From positions 1 to 33,080 of the forward strand of contig JAGMDK010000130.1 in assembly GCA_023128695.1 (NCBI GenBank): a stretch of DNA of 33,080 nt, read 5' to 3'. A program made the position numbers and the translations under genes. This DNA comes from Phycisphaerae bacterium (GTDB taxonomy: Bacteria > Planctomycetota > Phycisphaerae > UBA1845 > Fen-1342). The notes below the pieces were generated by a model. The model had not been told where the DNA came from and made no database searches. It was given only the letters and a program-made list of their open reading frames with translations. Of this stretch, positions 2,307-21,627 are shown one piece after another (positions within the stretch are counted from its first letter, which is position 1; each line of letters starts with the position of its first letter).

Positions 2307-2609
2307 ATGGCTGTGACGCTTACCAAAGCTGAGTGCGCATTCTGCCGGGGAACCGGCGTTGTGGCGAAGATTTCCAAGTGCCCGGTCTGCAACGGGCGCA
2401 AGGTAGTGTATGTGCAGGAGCCCTTCGTCCCCTGCCCCGAATGCGAGGGCAGGGGCAAGAAGCCCGGCACGCAGATGAGTTGCCTGAAGTGCCGCGGGAA
2501 AGGGGTTGTCCACCAGGCCGAGCCGACAACCGAATACGCCGAGTGGGCCGGCCCGACAACCAAATACTCCCAGTGGAACGCCGGCGGCGAAGGAGCCTGG
2601 AAGAGCTGA
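2307..2609 (+). CDS. Short DnaJ-type zinc-motif protein, copy 2
   Basis: A 100-residue tandem paralogue of the gene at 1921, with GAGGAGGT before ATG 2307. Motifs are CAFCRGTG, CPVCNGRK, CPECEGRG and CLKCRGKG. Two residues groups that would be the fifth motif in the long paralogue read TTEYAEW and, in a further partial copy, TTKYSQW. Thus the aromatic replacement of cysteine is repeated rather than random. No J-domain. The likely role is a substrate-binding or zinc-structured adaptor of the locus; this is inferred from family and context. Confidence 0.75.
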   Translation: MAVTLTKAECAFCRGTGVVAKISKCPVCNGRKVVYVQEPFVPCPECEGRGKKPGTQMSCLKCRGKGVVHQAEPTTEYAEWAGPTTKYSQWNAGGEGAWKS

Positions 2610-2697
2610 TCCGGAACCGGCGGACCGATGGCCGGTCGAACGAGAACGGGCAGTGCCGAAACAAGCCCCGGCAGCATGTGGCGCGAGGAGATTACGC

Positions 2698-3954
2698 GTG
2701 GTAGTTCGGAAGAAAATGGCTGTGGTGACTACGAAAGTCAAGTGCGCGTTTTGCAAGGGGACGGGCAAGGATCCGTTCGGCGTCATGTCGAAGAGATCCA
2801 AGTGCCCGGTCTGCAACGGGCACCGGGAAGTCCATGTACAGGCGCCCACCGTCCCCTGCGCCTTTTGCGGCGCCACGGGCAAGCAGCCGCACTCACGCCT
2901 GACCTGCCAGGCGTGCCGCGGGAAAGGCGTTGTGCACCTGGCCGAGCCGACAACCGAATGCCCCCAGTGCGACGGCACCGGCAAGGAGCCGGGAGAGATG
3001 AATCTGCCCTGCTGGGTGTGCAAGGGCGCCGGGTGGCTCGGCAAGAATACATCCGTGCCAAAAGAGGTGACGGCGGCGGCGGCCGAACGAAAGGCGGCGG
3101 CAAAAGAAAGAGCTGCGAAACGAGCGGCGGCCGGCACGACGCCGGCCGGGGTCGGCACGCAAATCGACTGCGCCTTTTGCAGCGGGACCGGCGTGGACCC
3201 GTTCGGGGTTATGTCGCAGGAATCCAACTGCCCCGTCTGCAACGGACGCGGGAAGGTCCATGTGCAGGAGCCCACCGTTTCCTGCGCCTATTGCCACGCC
3301 ACGGGCAACCAGCCCGGCACGCGGCTGACGTGCACGACCTGCCACGGGAAAGGGGTCCTCCATCTGGCCGGGCCGACAACCCAATGCCCCAACTGCGACG
3401 GCAGCGGCCGGGAGCCGAAGACGAACATGCCCTGCGGGCTGTGCAAAGGTGCCGGCCTGATCTCCAGGCACAAAACCGTGCCAACAAAAGTACTTGAGAA
3501 GAAGGCAAAGCGAAAAGCTGTCAAACGGAAAGCGGCTCGCCGCACGACGCCGCCCGAGGAGATGATGGTCGTCAAGTGTGCCTTCTGCGACGGGGTGGGC
3601 GTAGACCCGTTCGGGGTTATGTCGGTGCTGTCCAAGTGCCCCGTGTGCAACGGACGCACGAAGGTGAGCGTGCGGAAGCCCGCCTACCCCTGCGCCTACT
3701 GTCACGGCACCGGCAGGCAGCGTGGCACCAAACTGAGCTGCGGGGTGTGCAAGGGCACCGGGCACGTCACCGTGCCCGGACCGGTGGCCGAGTGCCCGGA
3801 GTGTGATGGGCGCGGCAAGAGGCACGGGGCCCGCTTGCCCTGCGTCCTCTGTCGGGGCACCGGCCTGGTCACTGAGAAGTCAACCGAGAAGGCAACTGTG
3901 CCCGCCCAGGATAACAGCACCGACTCGCAGGGCGGCGCAGCAGAGGAGACGTAG
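2698..3954 (+). CDS. Triple DnaJ-type zinc-finger protein with 18 CxxC motifs
   Basis: The protein has 418 residues from GTG 2698, which has GAGGAG seven bases upstream. ATG 2716, in the position used by the two paralogues, is the alternative. It holds three homologous units of six CxxCxGxG-like motifs each (for example CAFCKGTG, CPVCNGHR, CAFCGATG, CQACRGKG, CPQCDGTG, CWVCKGAG in unit 1). Eighteen motifs could bind about nine zinc ions. Units are joined by Ala/Lys/Arg-rich linkers. A standard DnaJ has four motifs and a J-domain; here there is no J-domain. It is soluble and has no signal peptide. It could present several unfolded-protein binding faces at once. The J-domain of the locus is found on the GvpF/L at 8245. 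Confidence 0.8.
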   Translation: MVVRKKMAVVTTKVKCAFCKGTGKDPFGVMSKRSKCPVCNGHREVHVQAPTVPCAFCGATGKQPHSRLTCQACRGKGVVHLAEPTTECPQCDGTGKEPGEMNLPCWVCKGAGWLGKNTSVPKEVTAAAAERKAAAKERAAKRAAAGTTPAGVGTQIDCAFCSGTGVDPFGVMSQESNCPVCNGRGKVHVQEPTVSCAYCHATGNQPGTRLTCTTCHGKGVLHLAGPTTQCPNCDGSGREPKTNMPCGLCKGAGLISRHKTVPTKVLEKKAKRKAVKRKAARRTTPPEEMMVVKCAFCDGVGVDPFGVMSVLSKCPVCNGRTKVSVRKPAYPCAYCHGTGRQRGTKLSCGVCKGTGHVTVPGPVAECPECDGRGKRHGARLPCVLCRGTGLVTEKSTEKATVPAQDNSTDSQGGAAEET

Positions 3955-5433: not shown

Positions 5434-5793
5434 ATGGCCTGGGAGCATAAAGAGAAATTCACGGCGGAAAAGATCCCCGAGGAGATGAGAGCATTCAACA
5501 AACACACTCCCGGCATGGAGTGGCCCAGAAGAGGAAGGGACACCTTTACGTGTCCCAAGTGCGGCGTCCACACCTTCTCGGGCAAGGAATTCTGCACCGA
5601 TTGTGGCCAAAAACTGTCGTATGAATGCCCGCAATGCGGACTGGGATTCCGGTACGAGTACCAACAGGCCTTCTGTCCCGACTGCGGCGCCGACCTGCGG
5701 CAGGACATGTGGTTCGGAGTCCAACAAAAACCGAAGCGGCCCGTCACCATGAAGCCCGGGACGGTCAGGACAGTCGAAGAGGAGGTCTACTAA
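5434..5793 (+). CDS. Double zinc-ribbon protein
   Basis: A 119-residue protein from ATG 5434, with AGGAG upstream (an in-frame ATG at 5410 lies before that site). It has two zinc ribbons: Cys40, Cys43, Cys54, Cys57, then Cys65, Cys68, Cys81, Cys84. The first ribbon matches the one in the 61-residue neighbour. The head is charged helix and the tail is basic. Its stop codon TAA overlaps the ATG of the next gene (TAATG at 5791), so the two are translationally coupled, which ties it functionally to the DnaJ-type zinc protein that follows. Confidence 0.75.
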   Translation: MAWEHKEKFTAEKIPEEMRAFNKHTPGMEWPRRGRDTFTCPKCGVHTFSGKEFCTDCGQKLSYECPQCGLGFRYEYQQAFCPDCGADLRQDMWFGVQQKPKRPVTMKPGTVRTVEEEVY

Positions 5794-6545
5794 TGGCTTG
5801 GGATGTGACTAAAGTACTGAAACCTGTGGACGCGCCCCCGCTCGAGACCCTCGCGGGCGGCGAGCCGGCGGCGACGGCCACCATCCCCGCGCCGCCGGCG
5901 ACGGGAGTAGAGGACCAGAACACGACCGGGAAGCCCACTCTCGTTTTTCACCCGGCAGGTGTAACCAGCAAGTCAGCAGCACACGTGGGTGGGAAACATA
6001 GGCTCCCGAACTTGCTGTACGGCGGGGAATTCGATTGCGCCTTCTGTAAGGCGACAGGCCTGGTGCACGGCAATGTATGCGCCGTCTGCCGCGGTAAGGG
6101 GACCGTGAAGGTGAAACCTCCCCTGGTGAAGTGTGCGTACTGCCATGGCCGGGCTCATGTTCCCACGGGCAGCGATATAACCTGCCCGGTCTGCCGCGGC
6201 GTTGGGCTCAACAGGGTGAAACCGCCGATCGAGAGGTGCCCGGATTGCAGGGGGCGCGGGAGGCAGCCCGGTCAGGCACTGTACTGTGGCCTCTGCCGCG
6301 GCTCAGGCGTTATCACCAAGGTCCCAGAGAAGCCGCAGGAGGGCCCGAACGTCGTGAAACAGAGGGACCCCAACAAGAAGCTCCTGCCCGGCGGCAAGGA
6401 GCCGGGGACCGGCAAGCCTTTCCAGCCGCCCTGGCACGGCCCATCAGTGGCCCCCGAGGAGGAGCACGAAATGGTCGAGAAAAAGAGGAAACAGGCGCTC
6501 GAATGGAAACCGGTGCCCCGGGCCATACGAAGGCCTCACAAGTAA
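5793..6545 (+). CDS. DnaJ-type zinc-motif protein with six CxxC motifs
   Basis: A 250-residue protein whose ATG 5793 overlaps the previous stop. The first 80 residues are Pro/Ala-rich and probably flexible. Residues about 82-172 hold six motifs: CAFCKATG, CAVCRGKG, CAYCHGRA, CPVCRGVG, CPDCRGRG and CGLCRGSG. This is one complete unit of the sort that is triplicated in the protein at 2698, so it is the closest single-unit relative of that protein in the window. The C-terminal 70 residues are basic and Pro-rich. There is no J-domain. By family it should bind about three zinc ions and unfolded polypeptide. Confidence 0.75.
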   Translation: MAWDVTKVLKPVDAPPLETLAGGEPAATATIPAPPATGVEDQNTTGKPTLVFHPAGVTSKSAAHVGGKHRLPNLLYGGEFDCAFCKATGLVHGNVCAVCRGKGTVKVKPPLVKCAYCHGRAHVPTGSDITCPVCRGVGLNRVKPPIERCPDCRGRGRQPGQALYCGLCRGSGVITKVPEKPQEGPNVVKQRDPNKKLLPGGKEPGTGKPFQPPWHGPSVAPEEEHEMVEKKRKQALEWKPVPRAIRRPHK

Positions 6546-6900: not shown

Positions 6901-7830
6901 ATGCCAGCAACCGACGGTGTTACGCCGATTGAGATCGAAAAGGACCAGCCGGGCGTCGTCAGGACGCCCATGGTGGACAGTATTGTGAACCGCTCTCTGG
7001 CTTATCTGGGTGCCGGATACCCGGTCCACCTGACCGGCGCGGCGGGGACGGGCAAGACCTGCCTGGCACTCTACATCGCGGCCCAGATCGGGCGGCCCAT
7101 TATCCTGACACACGGCGACGAGGAGTTGGGCACCACCGACATGGTCGGCGGGAGCTACGGGTGGAAGCACAAGAAAGTTATGGACAACTTCATTCACTCG
7201 GTGAAGAAGCTGGATCAGTCGGTCTCGTCGATGTGGGTGGACAATCGGGTGACGGTGGCCTGCAAGTACGGTTTCACGCTGGTGTACGACGAGTTCACCC
7301 GCAGCCGGGCCGAGGCCAACAACAGCCTGCTCTCCGTCCTGGAAGAGCGCGTCCTGGACATGCCGTCCGGGCGGGGCGACCAGTCCTTCGTGCGCGTGCA
7401 CCCGAACTTCCACGCGATCTTCACCAGCAACCCGGCGGAATACGCCGGCGTGCACCGGGCCGCCGACGCCCTCCTGGACCGCATGGTTACGATCAAGCTC
7501 GGGCACTATGACCGCGAGACCGAGATCGCCATCACGGTGGCCAAGGCCGGGGTCAGTGATACCACGGCTACACGGATCGTGGATATCGTGCGCGGCCTCC
7601 GCGACTCGGAGCTGACCGACCGCAGGGGCGATGAGGTCTGTCCGGCGACGGTCCGGGCATCGATCATCATCGCCACCGTACTGCAGGCCTATGAGGCCGA
7701 AGCCAAGGTCAACGACGCAAACTTCGTTCTTCTTTGCCATGACGTGCTGGATTCGTCGCGCATGGAGATAATGCCCGACCAGAACGTCAAGGACGAGGTC
7801 ACTAAGCTGATCCAGAAGTTCGCGGCCTAA
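6901..7830 (+). CDS. gvpN: Gas vesicle protein GvpN, AAA+ ATPase
   Basis: A 309-residue protein with AAAGGA before ATG 6901. It is a MoxR-like AAA+ ATPase with Walker A GAAGTGKT at residues 46-53 and Walker B FTLVYDEF at 125-132, followed by EFTRSRAEANNSLLSVLEER, a conserved stretch of the GvpN family, and a sensor region FTSNPAEYAG. Length matches the family. GvpN is needed for vesicles to grow beyond small bicones and is thought to use ATP to remodel or deliver shell components in the cytoplasm. It leads the gvp core on the plus strand. Confidence 0.96.
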   Translation: MPATDGVTPIEIEKDQPGVVRTPMVDSIVNRSLAYLGAGYPVHLTGAAGTGKTCLALYIAAQIGRPIILTHGDEELGTTDMVGGSYGWKHKKVMDNFIHSVKKLDQSVSSMWVDNRVTVACKYGFTLVYDEFTRSRAEANNSLLSVLEERVLDMPSGRGDQSFVRVHPNFHAIFTSNPAEYAGVHRAADALLDRMVTIKLGHYDRETEIAITVAKAGVSDTTATRIVDIVRGLRDSELTDRRGDEVCPATVRASIIIATVLQAYEAEAKVNDANFVLLCHDVLDSSRMEIMPDQNVKDEVTKLIQKFAA

Positions 7831-8244: not shown

Positions 8245-9330
8245 ATGTCAACGCAATGCAGTTATCTCTACGGTATCATGCCGGCCGACAAGGCGAGAAG
8301 CTTCGGTCCCATCGGGATGGACGGCGGCAACGTCCGCGTGGTGACACACGGCGCGCTTGCCATGGTTGCCAGCCCGGCCGAGCGCATTCACTTTCCCGAC
8401 CTCCCGGCCGAGAAGATGCTTCAATACCTAGCCGAACACCAGCGCGTTCTCGAGCGGGTGATGCCCGACTCAGCGGTGATTCCGATGAAGTTCGGCACCT
8501 ATGCGGAGGACGAGGAGCAGGTTCCGGGCATCCTTCAGTCCGGGCGGGAGGTGTTCAGCCGAGCCCTGGAGGAATACGCCGGCAAGTTCGAGCTGGACCT
8601 GGTCGCCTCGTGGGCGGACCTTCGGGCCATCCTGTCCGAGATCGCCGCTGACCCGGCGGTTACGTTGATGAAGGCCAAGATCGTCGCCGGGGGGAAAGCG
8701 ACGATGGAACAGCGCCTCCGGCTGGGGCACTTGACCAAGAGGCTGCTGGATGAGCGGCGCGGCCGGATCGCAGCCGAACTGGTCGTGGCTTTGCGGGCGC
8801 TGTGGCCCCGCATCGTGGTCAACGAAACCAAGGATGACTCGATGATCCTCAACGCGGCTCTCTTGATCGACCGAAGCGACGAAGCTTCATTTGACCAGTT
8901 CGTCGATCAGCTCAACCGCGATTACGAAGATCGGCTCGATTTTCGCTGCGTTGGTCCGCTGCCGCCGTACAGCTTCGCGACCGCGGAGGTGCGGGCCGTT
9001 GATGCCGACGAGTTGGATGCCGCGCGGCAACTGCTCGGATTGGGCGAATCGCCCGGTCCGGCGGAAATCAAGGCGGCCTATCGCCGAATGCTGCAAGAGG
9101 TTCACCCCGACAGGAATCCCGACGCCGACGCGGCTGACCGCATGAAGGAGCTCGTCGCCGCGCACGAGCTTCTGGAAGAGTGTGCCTTGAATTGGAAACC
9201 GACGCCCCCCGCCGGCACAGGCGGGGCGCTGATCGTCAAGGTCAGGTCCCTGCCCGAAATACGGCTCAGGGCCGGTGTCTCCAAAGGCGCTTCCGAGCAA
9301 TCGGAACGTCTGGAGCCCCTGGGCGTTTGA
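8245..9330 (+). CDS. gvpF/L: GvpF/GvpL fused to a C-terminal DnaJ J-domain
   Basis: A 361-residue protein from ATG 8245, with GGAG upstream. Residues 1-245 are a GvpF/L domain: the start YLYGIMPAD, the central PMKFGT and the typical end CVGPLPPYSFA are all present. GvpF/L proteins are about 240-280 residues and bind GvpA monomers before assembly. Residues about 253-315 are a J-domain, with AARQLLGL, IKAAYRRMLQEVHPDRNPDA and the HPD tripeptide at 287-289 that stimulates the DnaK ATPase. A 45-residue tail follows. The domain union is in one unbroken frame. A dnaK lies 6 kb downstream on the same strand, so this protein is the likely link between the shell subunit and Hsp70. Confidence 0.93.
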   Translation: MSTQCSYLYGIMPADKARSFGPIGMDGGNVRVVTHGALAMVASPAERIHFPDLPAEKMLQYLAEHQRVLERVMPDSAVIPMKFGTYAEDEEQVPGILQSGREVFSRALEEYAGKFELDLVASWADLRAILSEIAADPAVTLMKAKIVAGGKATMEQRLRLGHLTKRLLDERRGRIAAELVVALRALWPRIVVNETKDDSMILNAALLIDRSDEASFDQFVDQLNRDYEDRLDFRCVGPLPPYSFATAEVRAVDADELDAARQLLGLGESPGPAEIKAAYRRMLQEVHPDRNPDADAADRMKELVAAHELLEECALNWKPTPPAGTGGALIVKVRSLPEIRLRAGVSKGASEQSERLEPLGV

Positions 9331-9354
9331 GCAACCCACTAGAGGAGCATGAAC

Positions 9355-10221
9355 GTGTCGACGGCCACGTTAACTAGCGAACCGCGCCCGGCAGTCGAGC
9401 CGGACCAACAGAAGGACTGGGGCCCGCGACGCTATATCTATTGTATCACCGACTGCGCTGAGCCGGCTCTCTTCGGTCCGCTGGGCCTTGGGAATGACTC
9501 GGAGTGCTTCGCGATGCCCTACAAGGGGATCTCCGCTGTCGTCAGCCGCACCCCGGAGAAGAAATTCGAGATTTCACGCGTGAACACTCTGAGGCACCAG
9601 CACGTGATGGAAGCGGTCATGGAGCGTGGATACACCGTCCTGCCGGTCAGGTTCGACACGATCGCCGAGGACAAGCCCGACGGGTCCGCCGACGCCGATA
9701 GCCGCATCGTCAACCATGTGCTCACCAAGCGCCTGGAGGAATTCACCGGGCTGCTGAAGATCTTCAGTGGCCGCGTGGAACTTGGGGTCAAGGGATTGTG
9801 GACCAACATGGAGACCGTTTTCGGCGAGATTGTGCGGGCCGATTACGACATCAAGCGCCTGCGCAGGAGAATGCTCGGCACCAAGGCCGGCAAGGCATCC
9901 GGCCAGCGTGAAGCCGGCCTCGCTCCCGAGGCCAGACTGGGCGAATTGGTCAAGAAGGCCTTGGATGCAAAGAAGGAGCGCGTCCAAAGGAAGCTGTTGA
10001 AGCAAGTTGACAACATGATAGTGGACTCGCGCACGAACAAGACTTTCGGTGACAAAATGTTCGCCAATCTGGCCCTGCTGGTCAAGAAACACCGACAGGG
10101 CGACTTTGGGGGTGCGCTGACGAAGTTCGACGATGAGCGGGCGGGAGGGGTCAAACTGAAATACATTGGCCCGGTACCGCCGTCGAATTTCATCGAAATC
10201 ATTATTACCTGGGACGATTGA
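9355..10221 (+). CDS. gvpF/L: Gas vesicle protein GvpF/GvpL, second copy
   Basis: A 288-residue protein. GTG 9355 is chosen because AGGAG at 9343-9347 lies seven bases before it; ATG 9349 is only one base from that site but would add just two residues. The GvpF/L pattern is present: RYIYCITDCA at the start, LPVRFDTIAE in the centre and IGPVPPSNFIEI at the end. A Lys/Arg-rich insert at about residues 175-205 lengthens the middle. No J-domain here. The stop overlaps the region of the gvpG start, so translation is coupled. By family it is a minor cytoplasmic assembly protein that interacts with the GvpA-type shell proteins. Confidence 0.92.
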   Translation: MSTATLTSEPRPAVEPDQQKDWGPRRYIYCITDCAEPALFGPLGLGNDSECFAMPYKGISAVVSRTPEKKFEISRVNTLRHQHVMEAVMERGYTVLPVRFDTIAEDKPDGSADADSRIVNHVLTKRLEEFTGLLKIFSGRVELGVKGLWTNMETVFGEIVRADYDIKRLRRRMLGTKAGKASGQREAGLAPEARLGELVKKALDAKKERVQRKLLKQVDNMIVDSRTNKTFGDKMFANLALLVKKHRQGDFGGALTKFDDERAGGVKLKYIGPVPPSNFIEIIITWDD

Positions 10222-10223
10222 CC

Positions 10224-10472
10224 GTGGCATTAATCCTCGATGACATCATACTGGCCCCCTTCAAGGCAGTCCACTGGATCGGCAAGAAGTTATACGAACA
10301 CGCGGAAGAGGAACTGACCGACGAATCCAAGGTCCGTCAGCAGTTGCTGGAGTTGCAAATGCGCTTCGAGCTCGACGAAATCACCGAGGATGAATACCAG
10401 GAAGGGGAAGACGCCCTGATGGCCCGACTCAAGGTGATCAGGGAATACAAGGAAGAGCGCGGATTGGACTAG
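10224..10472 (+). CDS. gvpG: Gas vesicle protein GvpG
   Basis: An 82-residue protein; GTG 10224 follows the previous stop by two bases. TTG 10218 is a possible but poorer start. The family pattern is clear: LDDIILAPFKAVHWIGKKLYEHAEEEL, then a helix with LLELQMRFELDEITEDEYQEGEDALMARLK. GvpG is a small, helical, essential accessory protein that works with GvpF/L in assembly. Size and order directly after gvpF/L fit other bacterial clusters. Confidence 0.94.
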   Translation: MALILDDIILAPFKAVHWIGKKLYEHAEEELTDESKVRQQLLELQMRFELDEITEDEYQEGEDALMARLKVIREYKEERGLD

Positions 10473-10501: not shown

Positions 10502-10777
10502 GTGGCAGTGATAATGCATGAACTGATTCAAAAGGCGAGAGAACAGCTTGGCGACATGACCGGCCTGGAACTCGGCAGTACGCTGTCCGCCGTCAAGGAC
10601 GACGAGGGTGTCTGGCGTGTGGCACTGGAGGCGGTTGAGAAGAAGTCCCTGCCGGATTCGCAGGACATCCTGGCGACCTATGAGGTGAGCCTGGACGATG
10701 GCGGCAACGTGACGGACTTCAGCCGCACGCGCATGCGCAAGCGTGGCGATACGTTCACCCCGGGGGAAGAGGAGTAA
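10502..10777 (+). CDS. gvpO: Gas vesicle protein GvpO
   Basis: A 91-residue protein; GTG 10502 follows AAGGAG. The match to GvpO is seen in the helix HELIQKAREQLGDMTGLE, the WRVALEAVEKKSLPDSQDILATYEVSLDDGGNV strand region, and the closing RTRMRKRG. GvpO is a small accessory protein required for vesicle formation in several organisms; its exact role is unclear. The gene is followed after seven bases by the ArsA-like ATPase gene, so both probably share a transcript. Confidence 0.9.
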   Translation: MAVIMHELIQKAREQLGDMTGLELGSTLSAVKDDEGVWRVALEAVEKKSLPDSQDILATYEVSLDDGGNVTDFSRTRMRKRGDTFTPGEEE

Positions 10778-10784
10778 TAGGGTA

Positions 10785-12857
10785 GTGGCAGGCTTACTGG
10801 CTAACGAGGAGAGTTTGCGCCTGGTGATTTTCGGCGGCAAAGGCGGCGCCGGCAAGACCACCTCCGCGGCAGCGACGGCCATCCATCTGGCGCGGCGAAG
10901 GCCACGGCGGAGGATTCTGCTGGTATCGACCGATCCCGCCCATTCACTGGCCGACAGTCTGGATGTGTTTGTCACGGACGACCCCGTGGCCGTGCCGGGA
11001 ACCGACAACCTGTGGGTCCGTCAGTTGGATGCCCCGCAGGCGGACCGCCGCTTCCACATGCAATACGACAGGGTCTTGAAGGCGCTGATTGACCGCGGGA
11101 CTTTTCTGGACGATGAGGATGCCCAGAACATAGTCGACTTACCGCTACCGGGGCTCGATGAGATAATCGCCGTCAGGGAACTGGCCAACCTTCTGAAGGA
11201 AAACACGTACCAGCTCATCATCATGGATACCGCGCCCACCGGACATACGCTCAGGCTGCTGGCGTTGCCGGAGGTGATGGAGAGCTGGGTGCACGCTTAC
11301 TCGCTCATGCAGCGCAAACATAAGTACATGCAGCGCACATTCGCCGGACGTTGCACACCGGACGCGGTGGATGCTTTTCTCAAGACGCTCCGTGCCGACG
11401 TGTGCCGCGTACGAGACCTGCTGCACAACTCCGCTTCCACTGAATTCGTCCCCGTGGCCAACGCCGATCCACTCAGCGTCGCCGAAACCCGACGCCTGGT
11501 GGATACGCTCGCCAACATGCGCATAGCCGTTCGCAGCCTCGTCATCAACCGCGTTCCGGCTGACAGAGACTGCCCCTTCTGTCGAGCCAGACACGTCGAG
11601 GCGGTCTCCTGGCTCGACCGGATCGGTCAGGACTTCGAGCCGTTCAACCTCGTGCGCGTGCCGCTGTTGGCCGGCCAGGTCCGGGGTGTGGGAAAGCTGG
11701 AGCGCTTCGGCGCGGCAGTATTCGGCGCCGAGGCGGCCGGCGCACCGACGGAAGACACGCCGGCGATAGATGTCGGCAAGTCGCTCAGGCATCGGCAGAC
11801 ACCCTTGGCCGAGCTGCTGCATAGAAACTGCAAGTTCATTCTGTTTGGCGGCAAGGGCGGCGTGGGGAAGACCTCTTTGGCCGCTGCAATGGCCCTGAAG
11901 ATTGCCGCGCAGCGTCCCAAGGATCGCGTCTTGGTGCTCTCGATCGACCCGGCCCACTCGTTGTCCGATTGCCTTGACTGTTCCGTAGGCAACCAGGCCG
12001 TCCGTATAAACGCCCCAGGCCTGCTGGAGGCCAAGGAGCTGAACGCGGAGGACCTCTTCAAGGCCTATATAGACGAATACCGCCGGGATATCGCGCGGGC
12101 TTTCGACATCGCGGGGAATGTGGAACTGCGCTTCGACCGGGAGGTCATGGACGAGCTCCTCTCGGTCTGGCCGTCGGGTCTGGACGAGATCATGGCCCTG
12201 GTGGAGATGCTGGACCTGTCCGATGCCTATGACGTAGTCGTGCTCGATACGGCGCCCACCGGACACCTGCTCCGTTTCCTGGAGATGCCCGAGTTGGCCC
12301 GGCAATGGCTGAAGGCCATCTTCAGAATCATCATAAAGCACCAGACCGTCATCAACCTGACCAACATCGGTGAAAAACTTGTCCAGCTTTCGCGTGATAT
12401 TCGCCGTGTCCAGGAAGCACTGATCAACGCCGATCAGACCACGTTTGTCGCGGTGACCATCCCGGAAACGATGGCGGTTGCCGAGACCCACAGACTGCTG
12501 GCGTCTCTGAAGCGCTTGGGCGTGTCTTGTCGCGACCTGGTCATCAACATGGTCACGTCCAGCCCGGCCTCCTGCCCGTTCTGCCGCGCGCGCCGGCGCG
12601 AGGAGCAGAGCTGCATACGTGAGCTGCGCGGGCCGGCGGACGTGGCCATAACCGAGGTGCCGCTGCTGGCTCAGCAGATCAGGGGTATTGGGGCGCTGAA
12701 CGACCTGATCGCCGCTGCCCTGGGGCCGGCCGGCTCCTGGATTCAACGGGTCCTCAACGTCTCGCCCAAGCTGTTTGCCCCGCTGGGGCGTCTAATGTCA
12801 GTCGCCGTTGCGAACCCGGCTCCAGGCGAGACCTGCACCTGCCGGCGACGAGACTGA
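10785..12857 (+). CDS. Double ArsA/Get3-like ATPase within the gvp core
   Basis: A 690-residue protein; GTG 10785 has GAGGAG ten bases upstream. It has two homologous halves. Each has a deviant Walker A (GGKGGAGKTT at 17-26 and GGKGGVGKTS at 355-364), STDPAHSL or SIDPAHSL (switch I), and DTAPTGHTLR or DTAPTGHLLR (switch II). Each half also has a CPFCRAR motif, like the zinc-binding CxxC of Get3. ArsA drives arsenite export with ArsB; Get3 shields hydrophobic tail-anchored proteins. No arsB, arsR or arsD is nearby. The position between gvpO and a gvpJ-like gene suggests a Get3-type role with the hydrophobic shell subunits. This role is inference. Confidence 0.88.
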   Translation: MAGLLANEESLRLVIFGGKGGAGKTTSAAATAIHLARRRPRRRILLVSTDPAHSLADSLDVFVTDDPVAVPGTDNLWVRQLDAPQADRRFHMQYDRVLKALIDRGTFLDDEDAQNIVDLPLPGLDEIIAVRELANLLKENTYQLIIMDTAPTGHTLRLLALPEVMESWVHAYSLMQRKHKYMQRTFAGRCTPDAVDAFLKTLRADVCRVRDLLHNSASTEFVPVANADPLSVAETRRLVDTLANMRIAVRSLVINRVPADRDCPFCRARHVEAVSWLDRIGQDFEPFNLVRVPLLAGQVRGVGKLERFGAAVFGAEAAGAPTEDTPAIDVGKSLRHRQTPLAELLHRNCKFILFGGKGGVGKTSLAAAMALKIAAQRPKDRVLVLSIDPAHSLSDCLDCSVGNQAVRINAPGLLEAKELNAEDLFKAYIDEYRRDIARAFDIAGNVELRFDREVMDELLSVWPSGLDEIMALVEMLDLSDAYDVVVLDTAPTGHLLRFLEMPELARQWLKAIFRIIIKHQTVINLTNIGEKLVQLSRDIRRVQEALINADQTTFVAVTIPETMAVAETHRLLASLKRLGVSCRDLVINMVTSSPASCPFCRARRREEQSCIRELRGPADVAITEVPLLAQQIRGIGALNDLIAAALGPAGSWIQRVLNVSPKLFAPLGRLMSVAVANPAPGETCTCRRRD

Positions 12858-12872: not shown

Positions 12873-13238
12873 ATGGAAGCTCAGAACATTGATGGCGCGC
12901 AGGCCCCCAGCACGGGGACGCTGGCGGACGTGATCGATCGTATCCTGGACAAGGGCTTGGTGATCGACGCCGACATCACCATCTCCATAGTCGACGTGGA
13001 GTTGCTGAACATCAAGATCAGAGCGGTGCTGTGCTCGCTCGAGACAGCGGCTCGGTATGGCCTCGAACTACCCTCCGGAACCAACATGGAGACGGAGGCC
13101 TGGAAAGAAGCCCAGATCCCCAAAGAGAACTGTCCGCAGTGCGGTAAACGGAGTCCCCTGGAAGAGCTTCTGGGAGTGGGCTGTCCGTGGTGCGGCTGGG
13201 TGCCAGCGAAGCTCAAGGTGCTGGCCGAGGCCTCCTAA
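12873..13238 (+). CDS. gvpJ: GvpJ-like shell-family protein with C-terminal zinc ribbon
   Basis: A 121-residue protein; ATG 12873 follows GGAAG. Residues about 15-68 are a GvpA-superfamily domain: TLADVIDRILDKGLVIDADITISIVDVELLNIKIR and on to LETAARYGLELP. The DVELL.IKIR form fits GvpJ better than the major shell GvpA. Residues 87-107 are a zinc ribbon with Cys87, Cys90, Cys104 and Cys107 (CPQCGKRS...GCPWCGW). GvpJ-type proteins are minor shell or nucleation components, usually with a plain tail. A metal-binding tail could dock the zinc-rich chaperones of the locus; that is speculation. Confidence 0.9.
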   Translation: MEAQNIDGAQAPSTGTLADVIDRILDKGLVIDADITISIVDVELLNIKIRAVLCSLETAARYGLELPSGTNMETEAWKEAQIPKENCPQCGKRSPLEELLGVGCPWCGWVPAKLKVLAEAS

Positions 13239-13255
13239 GAGCGCCGGCAACGGCG

Positions 13256-13978
13256 ATGCCCGAACGGAAACGCACGATGCCTGAAAGGAAAGCCAACAGG
13301 GACGAAATGGCTGAGCAAATAAGGCAACTGAAAGAGGAGGTTCGCAAACTCCGCGAGACTTCCTCGGAACCCCCTGCCCAGGCAGAGGGCGTGGCCGAAG
13401 GCATCACGGCCGAGCTCGGGAAGATGATTCCCGGGTTGCAGAAGCTGATCGACGTCGCGGCCCAGATGCCGGAGTTCCGCCAGCGGCTGGCGTCGATCGA
13501 CGAGGAAATCAAGCGCAAGTTCAAGGAACAGCCGCTGCGCCGCGCTTCCGCGGAGATGACCAGGGGCATCGAACGCCGCCCGCTGGGCATTCCGCCGGGG
13601 GTACGCCGCGGCAGACCGGGACGGCCCGTTTCGGCGGGGACCGGAAAGGTGTGGTCCTCGGGCAAGCCTCCCGTGCGCGGCAAGCACGGTAAGCCTGGCC
13701 CGCCGAAAGTCCACATCAGTCCCGAGACGCCCGCGCAGCTTCCCGTGGACGTCTTTGACGAGGGGGACAGACTCGTGGTCCTGGCGGAGGCAACCGGTCT
13801 GAAGTTGGGGCACATTACGGTCTCCCTGGAGGGCACCGCACTTGTGATTTCCATCGACGGCCCCCATGGAAAGGGTGTCCAGCGGGTCGAGCTGCCGTGC
13901 GAGGTCGCCGGCGAGCCCAAGGTGTCCCTCGCGAAAGGAATACTGAAGATCCAGGTGAGCAAGGTGGACAAGCAATGA
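13256..13978 (+). CDS. gvpH: GvpH-like Hsp20-domain protein
   Basis: The product has 240 residues from ATG 13256, or 233 from ATG 13277; ribosome binding sites are weak for both. The N-terminal part is coiled coil (EMAEQIRQLKEEVRKLRE) followed by an amphipathic stretch (GITAELGKMIPGLQKLI). A basic, Gly/Pro-rich linker at about 115-165 separates it from a C-terminal alpha-crystallin-like domain (VFDEGDRLVVLAEATGL ... GILKIQVSK). GvpH proteins of haloarchaea combine an N-terminal helix with an Hsp20 domain and chaperone vesicle proteins. Its stop overlaps the gvpK start, so the two are coupled. Confidence 0.8.
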   Translation: MPERKRTMPERKANRDEMAEQIRQLKEEVRKLRETSSEPPAQAEGVAEGITAELGKMIPGLQKLIDVAAQMPEFRQRLASIDEEIKRKFKEQPLRRASAEMTRGIERRPLGIPPGVRRGRPGRPVSAGTGKVWSSGKPPVRGKHGKPGPPKVHISPETPAQLPVDVFDEGDRLVVLAEATGLKLGHITVSLEGTALVISIDGPHGKGVQRVELPCEVAGEPKVSLAKGILKIQVSKVDKQ

Positions 13979-14328
13979 TCAAGATCGACGAAGCGAAGCT
14001 TAAGAATGGCGTTTTGGGTCTGGTGATGGCCGTCGTGGAGATCATCCGCGACGCCCTGCAAAATCAGGCCACCCGCCGAATGGAGTCGGGCAGTCTGGTT
14101 GAGGAAGAGGTTGAGCGCTTGGGCCGGGCCCTGGCGGACCTGGACCTCGCCATCGAGGACATCAAGCGCGAACAGGGGATCGAGCAGGCCGTCCAGTCGG
14201 TTCGTGACGGCTTGGACGACCTCGTTAATGACGTTGTCCAAACCGTGGTTGACCCAAGCAAATGGCCCGTAGTACCGGCCGGTACTGAGCGCGAAGAGCT
14301 AGTGGGAGCACAGAAGAATGACAGTTGA
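13975..14328 (+). CDS. gvpK: Gas vesicle protein GvpK
   Basis: A 117-residue protein. ATG 13975 overlaps the previous stop (ATGA). Family features are LKNGVLGLVMAVVEIIRDALQ, QATRRMESGSLVEEEVERLGRALADLDLAIEDIK, in the right order. The tail of about 40 residues beyond the usual end is acidic and variable. GvpK is an accessory protein needed for proper vesicle development. The end overlaps the start of the third GvpF/L by 11 bases. Confidence 0.93.
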   Translation: MIKIDEAKLKNGVLGLVMAVVEIIRDALQNQATRRMESGSLVEEEVERLGRALADLDLAIEDIKREQGIEQAVQSVRDGLDDLVNDVVQTVVDPSKWPVVPAGTEREELVGAQKNDS

Positions 14329-15109
14329 CGTGGCCGTTAAACAAGACGGACTGTACGTCTACTGCGTCGCCCGTGGCAAGGACCACTATCCACTTGGTCC
14401 CATCGGGCTGGATGGCCAGAGAGTCTACACCCTGGCGAGCGGAGACCTCTGCGCCGTGGTCCACGACCGCCAGGCCGAGCCATATCAATCCGAAGACGCT
14501 CAGGCCGTCGAGGGCTGGGCATTGACCCACCAGCAGGTGGTCAGCACGGCAACCGAGGCGTTCGGAACGGTTTTGCCGATGGCCTTCAACATGATCGTGC
14601 ACGGCGACGAGAACGGCGGCGCCACGGAAAATCTCGCGGCCTGGCTGGAGGAGAAGCGCGACAGATTCACCGGCCTGTTGGACAAGCTCGCCGGCAAGGC
14701 CGAATACGGCGTCCAAATATTCTGGGAGCCCAAGGTGGTCACCGCCGCTCTCATTCGGAGCATGCCTGAGCTTCGCAGGCTACGGGATGAGGCCCGGACC
14801 AAGCCGAAGGGCCTGGCCTACATGCTTGAACAGAAACTGGCCAAGGCGGCGCGGGCGGCGCTGGAGGCGCGGGCTAACCAGTGTGTCGAGAACTTCTACG
14901 CCCAGATCCGTGAGTGCGTGGATGACATCCGTCTCGATAAGCTCAAGAAGGCCGACAACGGCAGGCAAATGCTCTTGAACCTCCCCTGCCTGATGGACCG
15001 GAGCAATGGTGCCCTGGGCCGCGTGCTGGACGAGATTCAGAAGACCGAGGGTGTTTCGGTACGTTTCACCGGTCCGTGGCCGCCTTACAACTTCGTCAGC
15101 CCTGGGTAA
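14318..15109 (+). CDS. gvpF/L: Gas vesicle protein GvpF/GvpL, third copy
   Basis: A 263-residue protein; ATG 14318 lies inside the end of gvpK, with GGGAG upstream. GvpF/L features: GLYVYCVARG, ending with VRFTGPWPPYNFVSPG, and the middle VLPMAFNMIV. It is of normal length and has no added domain. Three GvpF/L copies are usual in many bacterial clusters and are not interchangeable where tested; by family each likely contacts the GvpA-type subunits at a different step. Confidence 0.94.
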   Translation: MTVDVAVKQDGLYVYCVARGKDHYPLGPIGLDGQRVYTLASGDLCAVVHDRQAEPYQSEDAQAVEGWALTHQQVVSTATEAFGTVLPMAFNMIVHGDENGGATENLAAWLEEKRDRFTGLLDKLAGKAEYGVQIFWEPKVVTAALIRSMPELRRLRDEARTKPKGLAYMLEQKLAKAARAALEARANQCVENFYAQIRECVDDIRLDKLKKADNGRQMLLNLPCLMDRSNGALGRVLDEIQKTEGVSVRFTGPWPPYNFVSPG

Positions 15110-15137
15110 CCGGGAGATTGGCCGTTCGGAAACGATT

Positions 15138-15440
15138 ATGGAACCTGAGCTTCCCAAATACAACCGGGCCACCCTCGTAGACCTGTTGGACCGGATCCTG
15201 GACAAGGGGGTGTTCCTACGTGCCGACGTAGTGATATCCGTGGCGGGCATCCCGCTGATCGGCCTGACGCTGAGCGTGGTGCTGGCCGGCATGGAGACCA
15301 TGCTCGAGTACGGCCTTCTGTCCGATTGGGACCAGGCGATCCGGGCCTTGCCACCCGGCCAACGATACGCAACGACGACAGGGGGCCGGCCGACCGAGCC
15401 TCGGCCGGGCAAGCGAGTAGCAAGCGCGGTGCCGGCCTGA
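15138..15440 (+). CDS. GvpA-superfamily minor protein (GvpJ/M/S type)
   Basis: A 100-residue protein from ATG 15138; the ribosome binding site is weak (CGGAAA). Residues 11-70 match the GvpA superfamily: ATLVDLLDRILDKGVFLRADVVISVAGIPLIGLTLSVVLAGMETMLEYGLL. The AGIPLIGL...LAGMETM wording is unlike the major shell protein and fits the minor GvpJ/GvpM/GvpS branch. The C-terminal 30 residues are basic and probably disordered. It is likely a minor shell or tip component. The branch cannot be fixed by eye. Confidence 0.88.
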   Translation: MEPELPKYNRATLVDLLDRILDKGVFLRADVVISVAGIPLIGLTLSVVLAGMETMLEYGLLSDWDQAIRALPPGQRYATTTGGRPTEPRPGKRVASAVPA

Positions 15441-15506: not shown

Positions 15507-17369
15507 ATGGATACCCCAACGGATACCCCAACGGACGCCCCAACAGAGACCATCATAGGCATCGACTTGGGCACGACCAATTCCGCCGTAGCCTACATGA
15601 AAGACGGAGAGTCCGTCATCGTGCCGAACATGGAGGGCGACGCGCTGACGCCGTCGGTGGTGGCTTTCGCCGAGGACGACCGCCGGTGGGTGGGGCGGAT
15701 CGCCAAGACCCAGGCCGTGGCAAACCCCCGGAGGACGATATTCTCCATCAAGCGGCGGATGGGGAGTACCCGCACGGCCCGGGAGGAGTTGCTCGACGTC
15801 GTCTCCTCCATTAAGCGGCGGATGGGTACCGAGAACGTGGTGACCGTTGGTAATCGCACGTACACGCCCGTCGAGATCTCCGCCATGATCCTCGAAAAAC
15901 TCAAGGCGGATACCGAGGCATATCTGGGAAAAACGATCAAGCGGGCGGTCATCACCGTTCCGGCCTACTTCAACGACAGTCAACGACGGGCGACCAGAGA
16001 GGCCGGAGCGGTCGCCGGCCTGGAGGTGGTGCGGCTGGTCAACGAGCCCACGGCGGCGTCGCTGGCCTACGGCCTGGATATCGAGAAGGTGCACTCGATT
16101 CTGGTGTGGGACCTCGGCGGCGGAACGTTCGACGTGTCGGTACTTGAGCTGGGTGACGGGGTCTTCGAGGTCAAGGCCGTCAACGGGAACACCAAGTTGG
16201 GCGGGGACGATTACGACCAGCGCCTCGTCGAGATGCTGATTGAGCGCTTTCGCGACGAATGGGACGTGGATCTCAACCAAGATGCGACTGCCAAGCGCAT
16301 GACGCGCCAGTTGGCGGAGCAGGCCAAGATGCGGCTAACCGACGACGCCGAGACGCGGGTGGTGCTGCCGGCCTATCTCAGCGAGGGCCGCCGCTGCGCC
16401 CTAACCGTCACCAGAGACGCCTTCGAGCAGATCACGGCCGACATTACCGAGAGGATGGTGGCTCCCGCGGAATGCGCCCTGTCCGATGCGGGTATCGACC
16501 CGATCGCTCTGGACCGGGTTGTCCTGGTCGGCGGGATGACCCGGGTGCCGGCGGTCCGGGCCCTGGTCAAGCGGATCACCGGGATCGACCCCTACGGGCA
16601 CATCGATCCGGACAAGGTCGTCGCCCTGGGAGCCGCGATTCAGGCGGGCGTGCTCGCCGGGCAGGTGCACAATGTCACCCTGGTGGATGTGACCCCGCTG
16701 TCGTTGGGGATCGAGACCAAGGGCGAACTCTTCACCCGCATCATCCATCGTAACACCCCGATCCCGACCACCAAGAGCAAGCTGTTCACCAACGCGGAGG
16801 ACGACCAGACCGTGGTGGAGATACACGTCCTTCAAGGTGAACGCGAGCTCGCTCCGGACAATGTTACTCTGGACAAGTTCTATCTGCACGACGTCGAGCC
16901 GCAACCCCGGGGCGAGGCCCGGCTCGAGGTGTGGTTCGACATCGACGCCAACGGGATGGTCCACGTCTCGGCCGTCGATCTTCAGCAGGACACCGTCAAG
17001 CGGATTCGCATCGAGGCCGCCTGCCAACCGCCCGCTGACGTTGTGGAACGAATGCTGGCCCAGAGCCAAGAGAAGATGGAGTCGGACCAGCGCAAGCGGC
17101 AAGAGATCGAGGCCGGAATACGTGGAGAGAACCTGATCCTCGCCACCGAGAAACTGGTCGGCGACATGGGAGAGACACCCGACGAGAAGGTCCGTCAGGC
17201 GGCCGAAGCTGCCGAGCACGGCACCGCGCAGGTCCGTGATGCCATGGCCGACGGGAGACTTGAGCGCATCACCTCGGCCAACGAGACGCTCGAGGCGCAA
17301 GTGAAGAAGCTCGACTTGGCGATCAAAGCTGCCGCAGCACCTATTATGGCCCAGGAGCCTGTGGCCTGA
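15507..17369 (+). CDS. dnaK: DnaK (Hsp70) chaperone in the gas vesicle locus
   Basis: A 620-residue Hsp70 from ATG 15507, which follows AAGGAGA. ATPase signatures: IGIDLGTTNS at 17-26, VPAYFNDSQRRATREAG, DLGGGTFDVSVLEL and VLVGGMTRVPAVR. The substrate domain has DVTPLSLGIETKGE, HVLQGERELAPDN and FDIDANGMVHVSA. The lid is shortish and the usual acidic EEVD-like bacterial tail is missing; the end is KAAAAPIMAQEPVA. The N-terminus starts with a DTPT repeat. SIKRRMG occurs twice, 21 residues apart, from a 63-bp internal duplication. Its J-domain partner is probably the GvpF/L at 8245; no grpE is in the window. It is likely a locus-dedicated paralogue, not the housekeeping copy. Confidence 0.95.
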   Translation: MDTPTDTPTDAPTETIIGIDLGTTNSAVAYMKDGESVIVPNMEGDALTPSVVAFAEDDRRWVGRIAKTQAVANPRRTIFSIKRRMGSTRTAREELLDVVSSIKRRMGTENVVTVGNRTYTPVEISAMILEKLKADTEAYLGKTIKRAVITVPAYFNDSQRRATREAGAVAGLEVVRLVNEPTAASLAYGLDIEKVHSILVWDLGGGTFDVSVLELGDGVFEVKAVNGNTKLGGDDYDQRLVEMLIERFRDEWDVDLNQDATAKRMTRQLAEQAKMRLTDDAETRVVLPAYLSEGRRCALTVTRDAFEQITADITERMVAPAECALSDAGIDPIALDRVVLVGGMTRVPAVRALVKRITGIDPYGHIDPDKVVALGAAIQAGVLAGQVHNVTLVDVTPLSLGIETKGELFTRIIHRNTPIPTTKSKLFTNAEDDQTVVEIHVLQGERELAPDNVTLDKFYLHDVEPQPRGEARLEVWFDIDANGMVHVSAVDLQQDTVKRIRIEAACQPPADVVERMLAQSQEKMESDQRKRQEIEAGIRGENLILATEKLVGDMGETPDEKVRQAAEAAEHGTAQVRDAMADGRLERITSANETLEAQVKKLDLAIKAAAAPIMAQEPVA

Positions 17370-17379
17370 AGTCATCACG

Positions 17380-18300
17380 ATGAAAGAAGAAGAACTCTTA
17401 CAGTATTTGCTGGTCCCCTCCGAGCAACTCGTCCTCGTCAGCCCAGGCGCCTGTAGAACCTCTGATCGCTCGGGCTGGAAGCTGGGGCGGATGGTCCTGA
17501 CCGACATGCGGATCGTCTTCGTCGCAGCCGACCGCCGGCTCAGGGTCCAGGTGCTGCTCGATAACCTCAGGGACATCACCGTGGCAAAACAGCCCTTTTT
17601 CATTGCCAAACCTCCGGCCGTGAGGCTGACGTGGTCGGTGACGCCGACTAACCAATGGGTGTCGTCCCGCCGCATGGCTTGGCTGATCATGGGCAAAGCC
17701 AAGGCCTGGGCAGAGGCGATTTACCAGATGGCGCTCCTAGAGGTAACCGACCAAACCATCGAACGGGTCGCAGCCAGCGTGGATCCGGACAGTGCCGCCA
17801 TGCTGCGGTATGTCTGTCACCAGCACCATGCCGGCGTCGACGAACTCGCGGGTTTGATAGACGCGCCCTGCCACGATGATGTGCTGGTCAGGATTCACAA
17901 GACCATTAACCCCGCCGCGGTAAAGCTGTTGGGATGCAACATCCTGGTCTTTCGCCGGCGCTGGAGAGCAAGCGGCGACTCCGAGCCAATCAGCTTCAAC
18001 TGGTGGATCGCCGGAAGACGCAAGAGCGTCTCCACCACACCCATTGCGTCGGTGAATGTCTTCGAGGAACCCGACCAGGTGCATGTGGTGGCGGACCTGC
18101 CCGGCGTCAAGGACAACAACGATGTGATGCTGAGCATCTGCGACAGCCGCTTGGTTATCTCCGCGGCCTCCAACACGGAAAGATTCAACGAAGAGGCCAT
18201 CCTGCCGCCGGGCACACGCACGGAGACGATGACCTCGGGCATGAACAATGGCGTACTCGTCGTGCGGTTTCGCCGGCACTCACGCCGGAAGACTGCATAA
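17380..18300 (+). CDS. CheF-like/PH-type domain fused to Hsp20-like domain
   Basis: A 306-residue protein 10 bases after dnaK. Residues about 15-125 read like the PH-like part of archaeal CheF (GRMVLTDMRIVFVAADRRLRVQ, then LLDNLRDITV), and residues about 130-192 like a short winged-helix region with VDELAGLIDAP. Residues about 223-298 are an Hsp20-like fold: VNVFEEPDQVHVVADLPGV, LSICDSRLVISA and NNGVLVVRFRR. I do not know a named family with this order. CheF links chemotaxis to the archaellum; here that role is not implied. The Hsp20 part links it to the two other Hsp20-domain genes of the locus. The CheF likeness is by eye and should be checked. Confidence 0.65.
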   Translation: MKEEELLQYLLVPSEQLVLVSPGACRTSDRSGWKLGRMVLTDMRIVFVAADRRLRVQVLLDNLRDITVAKQPFFIAKPPAVRLTWSVTPTNQWVSSRRMAWLIMGKAKAWAEAIYQMALLEVTDQTIERVAASVDPDSAAMLRYVCHQHHAGVDELAGLIDAPCHDDVLVRIHKTINPAAVKLLGCNILVFRRRWRASGDSEPISFNWWIAGRRKSVSTTPIASVNVFEEPDQVHVVADLPGVKDNNDVMLSICDSRLVISAASNTERFNEEAILPPGTRTETMTSGMNNGVLVVRFRRHSRRKTA

Positions 18301-18345: not shown

Positions 18346-18861
18346 ATGGCGAAAAAGGACGAACAGGTTCAGACGTCCACTGGCTTCGGCTTGGGCGGTC
18401 TGTTCGAGGGGATTCAGAAGCTGATGGAAGCTGCCGCCGGACTACAAGGGTCCGACGAGATTAATAAGACCCAGGAGTTCACCATTCCGGGGCTCGGCGA
18501 GAAGGGCAAAGGCATCTTCGGCTTCTCCATCAGGAACCTCGCCGGCGAGACTCCAAGCGTGAAGGTCCAGCCCTTCGGCAACATTCACAAGCGCAAAGAG
18601 GGAATGGTCGTCGAGGAAGCCAGAGAGCCCGTGGTCGATACCTTTGAGGAAGGCGATCGAATCCGCGTGATTGCCGAGCTGCCCGGCGTTTCGGAGAGCG
18701 ACCTCAAGTACGAAATCGAGGGCGACATCTTGACGATCTCGACCAATGGCGAGCGCCCATACAATGCCGAAGTGCTCCTGCCCGCCGCCGTCGAGCCGGG
18801 CGACATCGAATCCTCCTACAACAACGGCATTCTTGAACTGAAGCTCAAGAAGGCCGGTTGA
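18346..18861 (+). CDS. gvpH: GvpH/Hsp20-type small heat-shock protein
   Basis: A 171-residue protein with AAGGAG before ATG 18346. The N-terminal part (GFGLGGLFEGIQKLMEAAAGLQ) resembles GvpH leaders; residues about 95-170 are an alpha-crystallin-like domain with VVDTFEEGDRIRVIAELPGVSESDLKY, GDILTIS and YNNGILELKLKK. GvpH is a soluble vesicle chaperone in haloarchaea. The last 50 bases of this gene have a diverged copy at 24835-24897, after the second ArsA-like gene, so another hsp20 gene once stood there. Confidence 0.88.
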   Translation: MAKKDEQVQTSTGFGLGGLFEGIQKLMEAAAGLQGSDEINKTQEFTIPGLGEKGKGIFGFSIRNLAGETPSVKVQPFGNIHKRKEGMVVEEAREPVVDTFEEGDRIRVIAELPGVSESDLKYEIEGDILTISTNGERPYNAEVLLPAAVEPGDIESSYNNGILELKLKKAG

Positions 18862-20664: not shown

Positions 20665-20751
20665 GGACCGACGATCACATGGGAGATAAGCGGACAGACT
20701 GGGATGGCACAGGGTCAAGAGCTGAATCCTCGATGCACAAGGAGTATGGAG

Positions 20752-21129
20752 ATGGATCCCAAACGCGTCTTTGTCAGTTGTGACAATCGCAATGACCTCT
20801 ACTACAAGCATGAGGTGGTCAACTGGAATACGGACCAGAAACACGCCTTCGACTACTGCGAGCCGTCGCCGGGCGTGCCTGCGGAGCAGGCAAAACAGGT
20901 CATTACGAAACGCATAAATGCCGCATCGCGCTTCCTCTGTCTCGTGGGGGAGCATACTCACAAGAGTAGACAGGCCAGCTGGGAGATCGAGCAGGCGGTT
21001 TTCGCCGACAAGAAGATAGCCGCCGTACTGATCAGACCGGAATATACACCACCAGCGGAGCTTTTGAGGGTCGGGGCCAGTTGGGCTGAGACTTTCGGCT
21101 ATCCGGCGATATGCGTTGCCTTGATCTAG
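20752..21129 (+). CDS. TIR-like (MTH538/ThsB-type) domain protein
   Basis: A 125-residue protein. ATG 20752 is set by AAGGAG at 20739, seven bases before it; ATG 20746 is too near and the frame upstream lacks a site. It matches the TIR-like fold once called DUF1863: start KRVFVSCDNRND.YYK, then FLCLVGEHTHKSRQASWEIEQA, with Glu78 and Glu80 in the WEIE motif. This fold is that of ThsB, the sensor that makes a cyclic ADP-ribose signal in the Thoeris phage defence system. There is no ThsA-like gene in the window. It could be an isolated defence gene, a signal enzyme or a pure adaptor. Confidence 0.75.
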   Translation: MDPKRVFVSCDNRNDLYYKHEVVNWNTDQKHAFDYCEPSPGVPAEQAKQVITKRINAASRFLCLVGEHTHKSRQASWEIEQAVFADKKIAAVLIRPEYTPPAELLRVGASWAETFGYPAICVALI

Positions 21130-21140
21130 ATGGTGAAGCG

Positions 21141-21623
21141 ATGAGATACTTTACAAAGCCAAGAGGGATAAAGAAAAAGAAGGAGCCGTGGTACAAAGAC
21201 GGGCTGCGGTATGAATGCACCCGTTGCGGGCAGTGTTGTACCGGAAGGGGCTACATCTGGGTTGACTATCAGGAAATCCTGGGCATGGCGGAACACCTGA
21301 ACCTCGAGCCGGAAACGTTTCTCTACCTGTACGTCCGCCGCGTGAAGTCGCGGCGCAGCCTCGTACAGACTCCTCAGGGGAACTGCGTGTTCCTGAGCTA
21401 CGACTCTGCCGGGCAGTCGCAATGCAAGGTTTTTCCAGCTCGCCCAGCCCAGTGCTGGACCTGGCCGTTCTGGCCGGCCAACCTGTTTGATGAGCGCTGT
21501 TGGGACCAGGCCGCCATAAATTGCCCGGGCGTCGGCAAGGGTCCGCTGTACAACCTCACTGAAATCCGGCAGATGCGAACTGCATCACCAACCCGACGGC
21601 GACGGCCGCAGCGCAGGAGGTGA
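21141..21623 (+). CDS. YkgJ-like cysteine-cluster protein, tandem copy 1
   Basis: A 160-residue protein. ATG 21141 is chosen because it aligns with the in-frame start region of copy 2 (MRYF). After a basic head (RGIKKKKEPWYKDGL) comes CTRCGQCCTGRGYIWV, then CVFLSYDSAGQSQCKVFPARPAQCWTWPFWP and a further CW..AA.NC. This is the pattern of the YkgJ family of cysteine-cluster proteins, which bind a metal ion or Fe-S cluster; the reaction is unknown. Copy 2 begins after a five-base gap. Confidence 0.82.
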   Translation: MRYFTKPRGIKKKKEPWYKDGLRYECTRCGQCCTGRGYIWVDYQEILGMAEHLNLEPETFLYLYVRRVKSRRSLVQTPQGNCVFLSYDSAGQSQCKVFPARPAQCWTWPFWPANLFDERCWDQAAINCPGVGKGPLYNLTEIRQMRTASPTRRRRPQRRR

Positions 21624-21627
21624 TCAG

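Follow-up and report, generated by a model that had tools for sequence, protein, structure and literature searches.

How the 8-kDa, highly hydrophobic shell subunits of the gas vesicle stay soluble and load into the growing structure is an open question, and a chaperone role for GvpF has so far only been inferred. The locus described here, from a Phycisphaerae bacterium (Planctomycetota), raises the further question of whether GvpF can be tied to Hsp70 in this process. We analysed a stretch of 33,080 nucleotides (JAGMDK010000130.1, assembly GCA_023128695.1; hereafter the window), which is one contig of a 4.47-Mb draft genome that comprises 668 contigs and is 88% complete. A first-pass annotation, made from the letters alone, had read one gene in it as a GvpF/L domain followed in the same frame by a J-domain with its HPD motif at residues 287-289. 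The open reading frame occupies exactly 8245-9330, begins with ATG downstream of a GGAG and encodes a protein of 361 residues, which we call GvpF-J.

8245-9330 (+): GvpF-J fusion, 361 residues (Pfam, AlphaFold, Foldseek)
9031-9177 (+): stretch coding for the J-domain (Pfam match, residues 263-311)
9103-9111 (+): HPD codons, H287-P288-D289 (read from the sequence; conserved in 82 of 83 aligned fusions)

Searching this one protein with both profiles, a check that the first-pass annotation had proposed, bore out its reading, with each match above the curated cut-off. PF06386 (GvpL_GvpF) covers residues 7-245 (189.8 bits, E=1.1e-55, cut-off 23.6; profile positions 3-244 of 245) and PF00226 (DnaJ) covers residues 263-311 (39.2 bits, E=7.8e-10, cut-off 27.8; positions 5-54 of 63), the two lying in one frame with no interruption. 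The Pfam match to the J-domain stops at residue 311, so a canonical helix IV is not recognised. These were the only two Pfam domains found, with no DnaJ zinc finger or DnaJ C-terminal domain, and GvpF-J is a class C J-domain protein by its profile match, its HPD hairpin and its belonging to neither class A nor class B. Among the NCBIfam models, none spans the combination of GvpF and J-domain, and GvpF-J falls below both the GvpF and the GvpL equivalog cut-offs.

A structure was predicted with AlphaFold from an alignment of 77 fusions (the aligned fusions without the row for plasmid pOA238_160), all 77 of which match both Pfam models. The model (mean pLDDT 93.1, pTM 0.85) has a GvpF fold followed by helices at 254-263, 272-286 and 296-316 and then a conserved strand at 327-334, C-terminal of the J-domain. 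HPD is placed in the loop of an antiparallel hairpin formed by the second and third of these helices; this is the feature whose presence in a predicted structure had been proposed as the test of the J-domain. The top Foldseek matches in the PDB are the GvpF structures 6l5d (Anabaena) and 4qsg (Microcystis), with E values from 9.1e-14 to 3.2e-13 and TM scores by target of 0.72-0.79. They are followed by J-domains including 5nro_B (target TM 0.78, rmsd 2.0), a J-domain whose structure was determined in complex with DnaK. GvpF-J therefore shares with GvpF (PF06386) the same fold and a domain of about 240 residues, but has in addition the C-terminal J-domain and conserved strand; none of the reference GvpF and GvpL proteins included from Halobacterium, Anabaena and Microcystis carries a J-domain.

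Since the window is a single contig of a fragmented draft genome, two genes could in principle have been joined by an assembly error or a frameshift, a reading that the relatives refute and that we regard as extremely improbable. GvpF-J alone, used as a single-protein query, found no relatives in public genome contigs; when four fusions were aligned and used as the query, 175 came up, of which the best 80 were kept. All of these 80 are GvpF-J fusions within gvp clusters, from more than 15 phyla, although the ranking favours full-length fusions. The phyla include Chloroflexota, Thermodesulfobacteriota, Planctomycetota, Omnitrophota and Pseudomonadota, as well as Nitrospirota, Nitrospinota, Actinomycetota, Acidobacteriota and others. 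The architecture thus recurs in 80 loci outside this organism. It is also encoded on a closed plasmid of Octadecabacter arcticus 238, pOA238_160, by a gene annotated merely as 'GvpL/GvpF family gas vesicle protein'; its product is 33% identical to GvpF-J over 315 residues, a stretch that takes in the J part. No relative of GvpF-J was found in viral contigs. The first-pass annotation had treated the fusion as a single oddity, and in this it was mistaken: GvpF-J belongs to a widespread family, part of which sits beside a dedicated Hsp70. Within a draw of 392 Planctomycetota genomes, 26 have GvpF/L and three of these have the fusion (the window's genome, G155 and G420); the genomes G016 and G026, from the same family as the window, have unfused GvpFs only, so the fusion is not shared by the whole family. 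Among loci drawn from two other phyla, 22 of 48 in Chloroflexota and 10 of 32 in Desulfobacterota are fused.

The J-domain might be a structural add-on that serves docking or oligomerisation and has no Hsp70 function. Two Chloroflexota proteins, L269:11445-12632 (-) and L179:8787-9866 (+), have lost HPD while the remainder of a J-like tail persists, as this reading would allow. The three HPD columns are, however, intact in 82 of the 83 aligned fusions, the exception being L179 with HRM, and they lie amid freely varying neighbours: entropy exceeds 3 bits at the positions directly before the motif and is near zero at H, P and D. HPD is also kept in 32 of 32 fused J-domains from the Chloroflexota and Desulfobacterota draws, which were not selected for fusion, although those fusions were recognised by the J-domain profile, so that degenerate tails such as that of L269 are not counted among the 32. 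In the closest pair, the window and L114, dN/dS is 0.11/0.62 (about 0.18) for the J part and 0.22/0.69 (about 0.32) for the GvpF part, and the J part is under purifying selection. We consider a purely structural role very unlikely. The predicted hairpin, the near-invariant motif and the lower dN/dS of the J part support the description of the J-domain as functional-looking.

The gene sits in a gvp cluster that starts with gvpN at 6901 and closes with an Hsp20 gene ending at 18861. All its genes share one strand and either overlap or are separated by no more than 90 bp, and we infer a single operon over this span. The first half of the cluster reads gvpN, a small gene, gvpF-J, gvpF, gvpG, a small GvpO-like gene (so labelled by eye only) and an ArsA-type ATPase; the second half reads a GvpA-family gene, an Hsp20-like gene, gvpK, gvpL, a further GvpA-family gene, Hsp70 and two Hsp20 genes.

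6901-7830 (+): gvpN, AAA ATPase (NCBIfam TIGR02640, 318 bits, above cut-off)
9349-10221 (+): second GvpF paralogue, unfused (PF06386, 164 bits; trees)
10218-10472 (+): gvpG (PF05120, 73 bits)
10743-12857 (+): two-domain ArsA/Get3-type ATPase (PF02374, 434 bits, two stretches)
12873-13238 (+): GvpA-family protein with a zinc-ribbon-like tail, not the short shell GvpA (PF00741, 61 bits; translation)
13187-13978 (+): Hsp20-like protein (NCBIfam NF041800, partial, E=3.6e-8, below cut-off)
13897-14328 (+): gvpK (PF05121, 65 bits)
14318-15109 (+): gvpL (PF06386, 221 bits; NF045778 GvpL, 187.5 bits, just below the cut-off of 200)
15006-15440 (+): second GvpA-family protein (PF00741, 55 bits)
15507-17369 (+): Hsp70, 620 residues, of a dedicated clade (PF00012, 634 bits; J-binding residues; tree)
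17380-18300 (+): Hsp20-like protein (PF00011, 24.7 bits)
18346-18861 (+): Hsp20 (PF00011, 31.5 bits)

ArsA and Hsp20 genes are already known from gvp clusters (PMC2963123), and the present cluster is of the same type; we know of no mention in that account of the J-domain fusion or the Hsp70, both of which are present here. A short shell gvpA was found neither in the contig nor in the 88%-complete genome. The relative L116 has one about 4 kb upstream of its fusion, so that of the window may lie off the assembly. The tail of the protein at 12873-13238 ends in CPQCG...CPWCG, with similar tails in L116, L120 and L136. Elsewhere in the window, a PPMIAEKRAENEALRAEV-like unit is tandemly repeated at the contig start (1-384), where it may belong to a longer repetitive protein, perhaps GvpC-like. 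Past the end of the gvp cluster lie a ThsB-like TIR-domain protein (20704-21129; PF08937), which adjoins two CxxCxxCC proteins (21111-22182), a second two-domain ArsA/Get3-type ATPase (22581-24866; PF02374, 408 bits), a CDC48-type double AAA ATPase (25176-27392, -) and a protein that combines a MarR-like match at its N-terminus with the core of a class II tRNA synthetase (30563-32092, -; PF01409).

Which of the two related gas vesicle proteins was fused bears on what GvpF-J may bind. A tree built from 148 GvpF/L domains places the 26 fused ones in a single clade (support 100), its sole additional member being L269, whose J-domain tail lacks HPD. When reference proteins are included the fused clade has support 94 and groups with the GvpFs of Halobacterium, Anabaena and Microcystis (support 95). 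The GvpL clade (support 99), in which the window's gvpL groups with Halobacterium GvpL, excludes the fused clade, and GvpL identity for GvpF-J is ruled out by the tree. Rhodococcus GvpF, which has no J-domain, is placed within the fused clade in the reference tree; its branch is long, and the placement is probably an artefact of this or else reflects loss. The simplest reading of these trees is a single old fusion that later spread, the deep branching having no more than moderate support.

The Hsp70 of the window matches PF00012 over 1-593 of 599 and is full-length, including the substrate-binding domain. An Hsp70 lies inside the cluster and on the same strand in 17 of 83 fusion loci, usually directly after gvpL and a GvpA-family gene; none was seen in the clusters of the other 66, many of which are cut by contig ends and too short to judge. 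Of 25 in-cluster Hsp70s placed in a tree, 22 fall into a single clade (support 100) that excludes the canonical DnaKs of the same genomes. The Hsp70s of L140 and L149 group instead with Chloroflexota DnaK and represent a separate recruitment within fused clusters, and that of L088 is a long branch. Contacts between DnaK and the J-domain are made by R167, D393 and the hydrophobic linker of DnaK (structure 5NRO). R167 (E. coli DnaK numbering) is kept in all in-cluster Hsp70s tested, and D393 and the linker are kept wherever the sequence extends that far. The in-cluster Hsp70s lack the DnaK C-terminal tail, and those of L136, L235, L281, L161 and L167, at 494-536 residues, are short enough to miss part of the lid. 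Against NCBIfam, the window's Hsp70 passes PRK00290 and misses the DnaK cut-off of TIGR02350. A housekeeping DnaK orthologue was rejected on its grouping with the other in-cluster Hsp70s (support 100), and HscA on its TIGR01991 score of 544 against a cut-off of 708.6. Phage records searched with this Hsp70 gave general DnaK-like matches only.

The partner of the J-domain could nonetheless be the housekeeping DnaK only, the nearby Hsp70 serving other clients such as GvpK, GvpL or the Hsp20s. This would suit the 66 loci with no Hsp70 in the cluster and L269, which couples an in-cluster Hsp70 with an HPD-less J-domain. Moreover, all 15 fusion genomes searched contain further Hsp70s, and 14 of them encode, outside the cluster, an intact DnaK of housekeeping type with a higher score (only fragments were found in G504, the genome of L186). 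Set against this are the separate recruitment of Hsp70 within fused clusters and the distribution of the gene across the phylum draws. As classified, 9 of 35 fused and 4 of 70 unfused clusters have an Hsp70 (p 0.009), and in a revised count 10 of 36 fused-clade and 0 of 66 unfused clusters do (p ~1e-5), both p-values being crude in that they ignore relatedness and the second resting on after-the-fact exclusions. The revision drops L279, L292 and L294, which look unfused and are cut at the contig start, and counts L269 with the fused clade; every Hsp70 cluster that is uncut at its start then has a fused-clade GvpF. An exclusive role for housekeeping DnaK therefore seems improbable to us, and we take the link between the J-domain and Hsp70 to be well supported by the sequence data.

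The window also contains free-standing proteins with the CXXCXGXG zinc-finger motif of DnaJ.

2506-3954 (+): free-standing DnaJ-type CXXCXGXG zinc-finger protein, 15 motifs (PF00684, 114.8 bits)
5625-6545 (+): second CXXCXGXG zinc-finger protein, partly degenerate (PF00684, 31.3 bits, just below the cut-off of 32.7)

More such free-standing reading frames lie beside the gvp genes at 1921-2214 and 2307-2609. Similar ones were counted at 48 of 116 gvp loci with the fusion and at 16 of 80 without it, as if the zinc finger of DnaJ were supplied in trans. GvpF-J resembles class A DnaJ in its PF00226 homology and in having free DnaJ-type zinc fingers in its gvp cluster, but differs in that no zinc finger or DnaJ C-terminal domain was found in the protein itself.

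What GvpF-J might bring to Hsp70 is best considered in the light of work on GvpF. In Halobacterium, GvpF alone among the accessory proteins GvpF to GvpM was found to bind GvpA (PMC7688916), and it has been proposed to keep GvpA soluble (PMC9501494). The claim of the first-pass annotation that GvpF/L binds GvpA monomers consequently stands for GvpF and fails for GvpL (PMC7688916, PMC9501494), and it is with GvpF that the fused clade groups. HPD is essential for stimulation of the Hsp70 ATPase, which is abolished by the change of D to N alone (PMC13254874). Taken together, the GvpF literature and the HPD requirement suggest that the most likely role of GvpF-J is to direct to Hsp70 a Gvp client that it has bound. 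We therefore favour, with some confidence, a reading of GvpF-J as a class C J-protein dedicated to Gvp clients, which it would present to Hsp70 and which are most likely GvpA-family shell subunits. The GvpF part would bind gas vesicle proteins in the manner of unfused GvpF from model systems, and the J-domain, through HPD, would trigger ATP hydrolysis by Hsp70. Hsp70 would then clamp the bound client, keeping aggregation-prone subunits soluble, and release them for incorporation, perhaps with delivery to the growing shell. The partner would probably be the in-cluster paralogue where there is one, such as that at 15507-17369, and housekeeping DnaK elsewhere. The client and the assembly step are more conjectural than the Hsp70 link. 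Fused clusters hold further, unfused GvpF paralogues, and one of these rather than the fused copy could be what binds GvpA. The proposal that the fusion hands shell subunits directly to Hsp70 is strengthened by the finding of a widespread family that lies in part beside a dedicated Hsp70, and such handover may be how the protein works.

Known systems offer two comparisons. HscB and HscA (Jac1 and Ssq1), which act on IscU, likewise pair a client-specific class C J-protein with a dedicated Hsp70 paralogue encoded alongside it; GvpF-J has a different client-binding domain and pathway, and the in-cluster Hsp70 falls below the HscA cut-offs. Auxilin and Hsc70, which uncoat clathrin, are alike in placing a J-domain on a binder of a self-assembling coat, and differ in being eukaryotic and in acting in disassembly. 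We know of no homology between auxilin and GvpF-J outside the J-domain. With auxilin recruiting Hsc70 for uncoating as a precedent (PMC13254874), GvpF-J might instead recruit Hsp70 for remodelling, dismantling or resetting a nucleation complex or stripping GvpF from the shell. GvpL and GvpF are indeed part of a multi-protein complex (PMC9501494), and GvpF is the primary but transient partner of GvpA2, then superseded by GvpG (PMC11445434). No sequence feature distinguishes this alternative, however, and the Hsp20s of the cluster fit folding or holding equally well; we consider remodelling possible but rather unlikely, and continue to prefer delivery of a Gvp client.

In the open-access literature, to which our search was limited and which cannot prove priority, we found no description of the GvpF-J fusion or of an in-cluster Hsp70. 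We see an even chance that these clusters encode, in many bacterial lineages, a dedicated Hsp70 assembly line, made up of a GvpF-J of single ancient origin, a gas vesicle clade of Hsp70, Hsp20s and free zinc fingers, and that such an ATP-driven line has not been described in the model systems studied. The occurrence of the fusion across many phyla, together with an Hsp70 of their own in some clusters, suggests that these lineages use Hsp70 to drive vesicle building. A fusion with conserved HPD in more than 15 phyla, in part beside a dedicated Hsp70, connects GvpF with the Hsp70 cycle, so that a single point mutation would suffice to test the chaperone model directly, and the chaperone modules may be worth trying where gas vesicles are to be expressed in new laboratory hosts for imaging.
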